DNA of 37,184 bases, taken from contig JAQVKX010000002.1 in NCBI GenBank assembly GCA_028694425.1, positions 1 to 37,184 on the forward strand, written 5' to 3'. Position 1 is the stretch's first letter. The number at the start of each line of letters is the position of its first letter. The DNA comes from Candidatus Gastranaerophilales bacterium. GTDB taxonomy: Bacteria; Cyanobacteriota; Vampirovibrionia; Gastranaerophilales; Gastranaerophilaceae. The notes under the pieces were generated by a model that was given only the letters and a program-made list of their open reading frames with translations, had not been told where the DNA came from and did not search any database. This document shows, piece after piece, positions 26,572 to 29,250 of this stretch. The position numbers and the translations under genes are program-made.

Positions 26572-26842
26572 CAATTCACCTCATCTAAATTATTTGTGGT
26601 GTACGTACTATAAAAATCTGCTATTTATATTTGACAGTGTTAGATTTAAAAAACATACTTTAAAGATAAGCATGTCAATTAAGCATGTTATACAATCGTA
26701 CTACATCAAAGATAATAGTCAAGGTAAATGCAAATTATTTGTAAATTTTTTTACATAAATTGTTACAATTGCATGATTAGACTGAGTAAAATATACCGAA
26801 ATGACGATAAACAGACATTTTCCATGTCAAGGGGGGGGGTCA

Positions 26843-26949: not shown

Positions 26950-26971
26950 GACTTTTTGGACATCCTCTTAG

Positions 26972-27193
26972 CTATATCGTGAATTGTAAAAGTTCCGCCA
27001 AATCACACTCCAATGCATCTGCTATTTGTTTTAAATAAATTATCGAAGGATTTGCCTTACCTGCTTCAATATTGCATATATGACCCCTGTCAGTATTCGA
27101 TTTTTCAGCTAAAATTTCCTGAGAATAATCTTTTATTGTTCTCAATATACGAATTTTTTGCCCTAATTTAAATAAAAATTCTTTATCATTCAT
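26972..27193 (-). CDS. XRE/Cro-type transcriptional regulator
   Basis: A 73-residue HTH_3 protein: LGQKIRILRTIKDYSQEILAE, the recognition region SNTDRGHICNIEAGKANPS (about 32-50) and LKQIADALECDLAELL. It is divergent from the 55-aa gene at 27299, whose promoter it may control; CTATAT and ATATAG (27226-27231, 27243-27248) straddle that -10 box. Its own ribosome binding site is weak. Confidence 0.85.
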   Translation of the reverse strand: MNDKEFLFKLGQKIRILRTIKDYSQEILAEKSNTDRGHICNIEAGKANPSIIYLKQIADALECDLAELLQFTI

Positions 27194-27210
27194 TTTATCA
27201 GTTTATTATG

Positions 27211-27239
27211 TTGACAAAAATTTTTCTATATCGTACAAT
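27211..27239 (+). promoter_or_regulatory. Strong sigma70-type promoter for the 55-aa gene
   Basis: TTGACA (27211-27216), 17-nt spacer, TACAAT (27234-27239). Inverted CTATAT/ATATAG around the -10 may be an operator for the divergent XRE protein. Confidence 0.8.
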
Positions 27240-27298
27240 CTAATATAGTAGGTTGTATTATATATTTTAATAGGATAAACAATAAAAGGAGATTTAAA

Positions 27299-27466
27299 AT
27301 GTCAAAATTTTCATTAGCAGAAGCATTACAACAAGACATTGAGGATTTGAAAGGGATTTTTAATTATGAATTTTACGGATTAACAAGAGAACAGGCAAAA
27401 CTACAAACCAGAGCCGTAATTATAAATCTGGAAGACCACCTTGAGGAGCTGATTAGTAATATGTAA
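27299..27466 (+). CDS. Unknown 55-residue protein
   Basis: A short gene with good signals: consensus promoter (27211-27239), AAAAGGAGA eight bases before the ATG, and a clean stop. The protein starts MSKFSLAEALQQDIEDLKG and ends LEDHLEELISNM. It is predicted mostly helical and acidic, with a central YGLTREQAKLQTRAVII stretch. I do not recognise it. The divergent XRE gene suggests a regulated pair, possibly a small toxin-antitoxin-like or accessory module; this is speculation. Confidence 0.75.
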   Translation: MSKFSLAEALQQDIEDLKGIFNYEFYGLTREQAKLQTRAVIINLEDHLEELISNM

Positions 27467-27589: not shown

Positions 27590-28111
27590 TTAACTTAATA
27601 AATCTATTGCACCTTGGATAAAGTCTTGTGCAAACTCAATTACTTTTTCACCTACAGTAGCGGCTGCATCAATAGCATGTTCTCCTAAATCAGCTATGCC
27701 TTCACCTAAATTGCCGATAGCTTCTCCTATGTCAGGAATTTCTAAGGGAGGGACTTCATGCATTTCATGTATTATTCCGCCATCAATAGGGTCGGAAATA
27801 GTATTACCTATTAAATCAAGAACAGGAGGCCCGGGATAATTATCATTTACAACAATAGGATCTTTAACTACAGAAAACCCTTTTCCTAATAAATCATTAA
27901 AAATTCTGGTTGTTGCAATACTAATTTCTTCTCCGGCTCTGGAAATAATAGTTCCTATACTTGCTGTAAATGCAATAGAATTAGCTTGTTTTGAATTGAC
28001 GAAAGTATCTGGAAGTTGATTTGAAGGATTTAAATAATTTTCATTAACACCTTTCTCTGCTAAATTAATTTTTAAACCGTTTTGATTGAAACCTGAAATT
28101 GCTGTAATCAT
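27590..28111 (-). CDS. Unknown protein with MI..S / IAFTA signature
   Basis: A 173-residue protein, second of a two-gene unit (18 nt after the gene at 28130). It begins MITAISGFNQ and has SIAFTA at 45-50. The middle is Pro/Ile-rich (YPGPPVLDLIG, VPPLEIPDIG). The C-terminal 45 residues form an amphipathic helix pattern (LGEGIADLGEHAIDAAATVG ...). No Sec signal peptide or membrane helix is seen. A strong AAAGGAGG precedes the ATG. Function unknown; the shared signature suggests it belongs with its upstream neighbour and the protein at 29251. Confidence 0.8.
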   Translation of the reverse strand: MITAISGFNQNGLKINLAEKGVNENYLNPSNQLPDTFVNSKQANSIAFTASIGTIISRAGEEISIATTRIFNDLLGKGFSVVKDPIVVNDNYPGPPVLDLIGNTISDPIDGGIIHEMHEVPPLEIPDIGEAIGNLGEGIADLGEHAIDAAATVGEKVIEFAQDFIQGAIDLLS

Positions 28112-28129: not shown

Positions 28130-29081
28130 TTAAACTGCTTTAAAAACATTTCCTATAGAATCTAAGCCTATATTTGTAAAATTATCTAAAATATTACTTG
28201 AAATTGCATCTACACCAATATCAGATAATGCATCAATTCCAGCATCAACTGCTTCTGCTCCAAGATTAAACATCATGCCTTTTATTACAAATCTTGCTCC
28301 TTGGGCATGAGCTACAGTATAATAAACCTTACGTCCTAATGCTGTTAACTTGTCTGCTTGTTTGTCTATAGCTGTTCCAAGTTTTATTCTATTATTTGCT
28401 ATTTTAATTTTTCCTTGCTCAATAGATACAGCCATTTTGGAACGTGTGCCTGTACTTACTAAATCTAACTTCCCGGCTACAGCATCACTGGCAGTATAAT
28501 ATCCATTAACTATAGGTTCTAAACCATTCTGCCAATATTTATTAAAAATTTCATGATGATCCTCACCAAAATCCCTTCTTCCTTTTTTTACTTTTCGTGC
28601 AAGGTCTAATGTGAGAAAACTTACTGCCTCAGGAATGAAACCAACTACAGGTATTTGAGAACCTGTCGGACGCATTTTCTTAAGTTCTTTAAATCTTTCT
28701 ACTGCTACTTTACCAAACTCATCCATTATTGAAGTCATGCCATTAAAAGCCTGAACAACATGTTGAGCTTCATCAATAAGTTGTCGATAGCTTAAAATTA
28801 CACCTTGCTCAGGAGTTTTAGAAGTTCTTATGTTATCCTCTACTGTTTGAGGAGTTAATTGTACTCTGTATGTTAAAGCATCTCTGTCAGATTGTGTTCC
28901 ATACCAACCTGCACCATGATAAGCGGTAAATGATACTTTAGATTTATTTTTTGATTTAGTAAATTCATCAGCAATAATTGCTTGAGGGCTTATAAAAACA
29001 GAATAATTATTTCTTCGGGGGGGGGGGGGATTTCCTTGCTATTGTGTTATTAACTGCAAAATTTGATATACTATTAATCAT
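28130..29081 (-). CDS. Probably phase-variable unknown protein, out of frame at a 13-C tract
   Basis: The minus strand opens at ATG 29081 (MINSISNFAVNNTIARKS) and runs into thirteen C (plus-strand G at 29017-29029), after which the frame stops at PPPPKK-stop. With twelve C the frame continues as PPPRRNNYSVFISP ... SKVSFTAYHG ... and joins without a gap the long downstream frame (MTSIMDEFGKVA ... at 28738), giving 316 residues. The downstream part has KKGRRDFGEDHHE, helical stretches and a C-terminal small-residue segment; no known domain. It carries the same MI..S.F start and VSFTA motif (49-53) as its neighbour. As read here the gene is OFF, or only the part from 28738 is made. An assembly error in the tract is the alternative. 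Confidence 0.8.
29017..29029 (+). repeat. 13-base G homopolymer (candidate phase-variation tract)
   Basis: Thirteen G on the plus strand, C on the coding strand, in codons 18-22 of the gene at 28130-29081. Slippage by one base would switch the frame. Confidence 0.85.
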
Positions 29082-29250
29082 ACTTCCACACATCCTTTTT
29101 AATTAAGCTTTTTTTCATATTAACTCTAAAAATTTTTTATGCAATATTTTTTAAAAAAATATTAAGAAATTTTACAAAGTATTTTTAAATAACAATTTTT
29201 TTAGATTTTATGTTTTATAATAATAGCAATAATATGAAAATGGAGTAAAT

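Follow-up and report, generated by a model that had tools for sequence, protein, structure and literature searches.

A poly-C tract at the start of a Gastranaerophilales gene: a probable phase-variation switch and its relatives in the family

The locus studied here raises a simple question: why should a gene carry, close to its start, a run of 13 C which puts a long protein out of frame? The best-known homopolymer contingency loci are those of a few pathogens. The gene lies in a stretch of 37,184 nucleotides, which we call the window, from the genome of a Candidatus Gastranaerophilales bacterium. The Gastranaerophilales are non-photosynthetic Cyanobacteriota of animal guts. The genome is a draft of 2.23 Mb in 256 contigs; the window corresponds to contig C93, which also encodes a split rpoC1/rpoC2. 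This split, together with an RpoB with 89% identity to that of a Candidatus Gastranaerophilales record, agrees with this placement.

We will start with the reading frames of the gene, which is found on the reverse strand; its features are collected in Table 1. On the forward strand the tract appears as 13 G, bordered by C (29016) and A (29030). The frame which starts at the ATG reads MINSISNFAVNNTIARKSPPPPKK*, so that translation stops just past the tract after 24 codons. On the 3' side of the tract a single frame is open, with 295 codons if we include the codon which starts on the last C (29017), down to the stop at 28130. The two remaining frames have 35 and 36 stops over the same stretch. 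From composition, the probability that a frame of 295 codons is open is about 7e-12. Leader and long frame fuse into a protein of 316 amino acids at tract lengths which are multiples of three (0 mod 3). The assembled length has an offset of +1, which we will call OFF; therefore 12 C yield the complete frame (ON). The original prediction had given this same account of the locus, with the gene out of frame at 13 C and joined again by the loss of one C, and its coordinates and arithmetic are right.

Table 1. Features of the switch locus, in window positions
Feature	Position	Strand	Remarks
Promoter-like element TTAGAGTTAATATGA	29115..29129	-	Common to the four switch genes; putative promoter
Ribosome-binding region (AAGGATGTGTGGAAGT)	29082..29098	-	Read directly from the sequence
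Leader, 52 nt from the ATG: MINSISNFAVNNTIARK plus first base of the next codon	29030..29081	-	
Poly-C tract, 13 C (13 G on the forward strand), proposed slippage switch	29017..29029	-	
Frame in the assembled state (OFF), 24 amino acids	29007..29081	-	
Long open frame after the tract, family A protein	28130..29016	-	Homologues in C157, G180, G073 and G007
Downstream partner gene, family B, 173 amino acids, no tract	27590..28111	-	Relatives in C155, C157 and C163

A second G run, G9, is found in positions 26831–26839, in a repeat-rich intergenic stretch on the way from the rpoB start to the switch genes. A small divergent gene pair, outside the list of open reading frames, is found around 26970–27465: a helix-turn-helix regulator-like frame on the reverse strand (about 27193–26972) and a frame of about 55 residues on the forward strand.

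Contigs C155, C157 and C163 of the genome each have a gene with the layout of the window gene: an upstream motif, a leader, a poly-C tract and a long frame. All four genes, the window gene included, need a tract of 0 mod 3 and none has one: the offsets are +1 in the window gene, -1 in C155 and +1 in both C157 and C163. The finding of all four genes OFF in the assembly is a point against phase variation. The motif TTAGAGTTAWTATG is present upstream of the four genes with at most two mismatches, and only one other site was found in about 260 kb of the genome. The gene starts of C157 and C163 are 99% identical over 104 nt, that of C155 is 86% identical; the three encode MITAVTxFRxNGTMP..., followed by 11 (C155) or 10 C (C157 and C163) and then by AGAAAACTAACTATTTAG. 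The window leader is similar to the MITA(I/V)(S/T)xF starts of the adjacent and paralogous genes. Beyond the shared start, C155, C157 and C163 diverge into three different proteins. In C157 the protein after the tract belongs to family A and is homologous to the window protein (36%), in C155 it is a relative of the downstream neighbour of the window gene (family B), and in C163 it is unrelated to them, with all family matches below threshold. Since a single leader is found on three different proteins, the switch looks like a portable module which brings an upstream region, a leader and a tract along.

The G+C content of this genome is 34%. A chance model, based on dinucleotide statistics from 260 kb and scaled to 2.23 Mb, gives about 0.003 G/C runs of at least 13 nt per genome. 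For runs of at least 10 nt it gives 0.4 per genome, and six are observed: those of the four switch genes, one in an insertion-sequence-like end and one in an intergenic site. None of the shuffled versions of the window reached the observed number of 8-G matches.

The search was extended to relatives, with one genome per species. Of 191 genomes of this family, 149 have G/C runs of at least 10 nt, with a maximum of 127 per genome; in a second sample the maximum is 176 (G253). These counts may be slightly inflated by artefact runs at contig ends. Elsewhere in the phylum, in families with mostly larger genomes, the maximum is 40 and most genomes have few or none. Runs of G31–G48 and similar ones at contig ends of genome G162 (L083, L090, L096) were excluded as probable artefacts of two-colour sequencing. 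The idea that the tracts of the relatives are intergenic, about 12 nt ahead of a -10 element, was dropped as the main reading, since larger samples put most of them inside leaders; some do remain outside genes.

In the genomes which we have read closely most tracts are found 20–50 nt past an ATG with a ribosome-binding site, in leaders of genes which start like a type IV pilin (FTLAEVLITLGIIG, FTMAEILLSLTIIG). Large pilin-like families with G10–G16 leaders are found in G162, G069 and G123 (genus g10), G021 (g22), G145 (g57), G063, G144, G141 and G208; L128, L102 and L126 are examples. Compared with TIGR02532 (prepilin-type N-terminal cleavage/methylation), two tract genes score 16.9 and 18.9 bits, over the cut-off of 16.3, and a third one 12.9. 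In six of the seven species of genus g10 there are 59–76 places which match one pilin-like tract gene. Of 61 sampled loci, 58 have an open pilin frame all the way from the tract to the core, which suggests selection for read-through of the tract. These genes occur in ON as well as in OFF copies. Some further tract genes resemble glycosyltransferases, and two in G114 (L151 and L153) are flagellin-like, with a G12 inside the gene at which the frame is broken in the assembly; L151, tested for Flagellin_C and GLUG matches, has Flagellin_C. In G073, from another genus, L048 has a C17 leader tract which is in frame, followed by a protein with an NPSFGT motif, the same design as in the window.

There are several signs of changes in tract length. 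The same locus in two species with 90% identical flanks has a tract of 13 in one and 12 in the other, and two alike loci in G063 have 12 and 13. In the window genome an insertion-sequence-like end is present in five copies, with alike flanks and runs of G8, G8, G8, G9 and G10. Against length change, one pair of loci with 98–99% identical flanks has 14 in both. No orthologous tract pairs above the score threshold were found between G123 and G069. The five insertion-sequence-like ends (L007, L008, L009, L010 and L018) are at contig ends, and their G runs are directly upstream of a transposase-like start (MKSLTGMTIQEFNGLLPAFEKALEEF).

A peculiarity of the pilin-like genes, unforeseen in the original prediction, is that their OFF frame is one-sided. 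In 400 kb of G021 we have found 21 pilin-like leaders with runs, 20 of which require n = 2 mod 3; 3 are ON and the 18 OFF copies are all at -1, none at +1. The copies of G069 and G123 show the opposite sign: 23 at +1, 7 ON and none at -1. Free drift predicts about equal numbers of the two OFF frames, so the near absence of one of them counts against free slippage alone. The paralogues may descend from a copy in one OFF state and switch slowly, selection may favour one OFF frame, or out-of-frame templates may be expressed via slippage. Both OFF frames are present among the four genes of the window genome, which favours plain phase variation there, although four genes are few.

The bias of the pilin genes keeps slow switching as a rival, and also slippage-dependent expression: the gene would stay out of frame and a set low level of protein would be made through transcriptional slippage or ribosomal frameshifting, with no change in the DNA. 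We consider it improbable for the window gene. It agrees with the conserved offset of the pilin-like relatives, where the sum of leader and tract is constant as the boundary moves (29+14 and 30+13; 26+11 and 27+10), and homopolymer slippage is already described (PMC5009743, PMC4256274). However the offset points in different directions in different genera, the same families have ON copies and both OFF frames occur among the four genes of the window genome. The common descent of the paralogues could also conserve an offset.

An error of sequencing or assembly has a similarly low probability. The true tract would have 12 C, miscounted as 13, and the gene would simply be on. Long homopolymers are prone to error, the genome is a draft in many contigs, and the G31 and G48 runs at contig ends of the relative G162 resemble two-colour sequencing artefacts. 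However mistakes would be needed in all four switch genes, whereas four coding G/C runs of 8–9 nt, in unrelated genes of this genome, all keep the frame. An error would also leave unexplained the run itself and its position in a leader, and in the relatives there are in-frame and out-of-frame copies alike. A decaying pseudogene which lost its frame at the C run, as might be thought from four out-of-frame copies and a protein without known function, is very unlikely, given 295 codons with no stop, a ribosome-binding site and an upstream element which have been retained, and the same design in four genes.

The proteins themselves give less information. Family A homologues without a tract (P0008, P0009 and P0010) are uninterrupted in genomes G180, G073 and G007. 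In G007 the family A sequence is fused to an ankyrin-repeat protein (Pfam); in G180 and G073 the gene comes after an ankyrin-like gene. In the tract-free relatives family A is followed by a gene with an acidic C-terminal part. A convergent M16 peptidase gene is found in C157 (Pfam) and, as judged by eye, in G073 too. Searches of GTDB r220 contigs and IMG/VR gave no relatives of the window protein, whose matches in Pfam, NCBIfam and PADLOC are all below the cut-off. The single-sequence structure model of the window protein (P0001) has a pLDDT of 31.5 and is unusable, and a classical export signal was not identified in the protein. The comparison of genes and genomes gives good support to the contingency locus proposed in the original prediction; a host-facing role of this protein is not supported. 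The VSFTA motif, which was thought to be shared with the neighbour gene, is found exactly in the C157 paralogue; the neighbour has only a similar SIAFTA. Short motifs of the types SFTA, SFKG, NFKG and AFTG are found in many proteins of this lineage: they are present in the first 65 residues of 16 of 203 open reading frames and in the next 60 residues of 4 of 184. The carriers include two genes of the window (27593–28111 and 28130–29081) and L027, L028, L029, L063 and L064. This short motif is possibly a sorting or export signal.

Translational phase variation by slippage of the tract is the explanation which we prefer for the window gene, with a probability of about 0.75, because of the four genes with the same design, the homologues without tract, the excess of tracts at gene starts in the whole family, the presence of ON and OFF copies and the differences in length. 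The locus shares three features with contingency loci: a homopolymer far above chance length starts 52 nt after the beginning of the ATG, a length change of a single unit restores or interrupts a conserved open frame, and there are multiple loci of the same design, four genes here and tracts throughout the family. DNA polymerase would slip on the poly-C and a C would be gained or lost. Multiple-of-three lengths would give the 316-residue protein and with any other length translation would end shortly past the tract. The assembled genome would have captured the OFF state, and at least three more genes would be under the same type of switch. The tract, the frames, the gene set, the homologues and the tracts of the family are observed, while slippage in the living population, expression and the role of the protein are inferred. 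Very probably the window gene belongs to a large set of switches which would turn ON and OFF at random.

Among open-licence papers on Gastranaerophilales or Melainabacteria with phase variation or pili we have found none which describes such switches. Mechanisms of this kind are known; what appears to be new in the literature searched is the lineage, together with the protein families, the shared module and the scale in the family. A gut commensal lineage of the cyanobacterial phylum appears to use contingency loci on a scale comparable to Neisseria, chiefly in pilin-like genes, which bears on surface variation in gut bacteria. The window gene is an entry point, since it has the same kind of switch on proteins without known role. 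More tentatively, and with more doubt than confidence, we suggest that the Gastranaerophilaceae have one of the largest repertoires of homopolymer switches known, with tens to more than 100 genes per genome, pilin-like, flagellin-like or of other kinds, which have G/C-tract leaders, joined in the window genome by a portable leader and poly-C module on different proteins; the one-sided OFF frame would then mean that expression is tuned by frame selection or by expression slippage, not only by random switching of the DNA.

Among known systems, the closest is the poly-G/poly-C phase variation of Neisseria, Campylobacter and Helicobacter, which also has a 5' G/C homopolymer, ON and OFF states set by length modulo 3 and several loci per genome. 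In N. meningitidis there are 277 candidates, and variation was confirmed in 115 of them by deep sequencing (PMC5084427). The candidate switch genes described here differ by their phylum, by an unnamed protein family and by a shared module of leader plus tract on different proteins. Listeria inlA also has a 5' homopolymeric tract which leaves a very short truncated peptide, 8 amino acids in inlA and 24 here (PMC2831843), but its tract is poly-A, whereas here it is poly-C in a genome with little G+C. In pil1 of Streptococcus gallolyticus the repeat length changes in a leader which precedes the pilus genes (PMC3894217), and this may be compared with the pilin-like leaders of the relatives. The pil1 leader is a separate peptide which acts by attenuation; here leader and protein form a single frame when the gene is ON.
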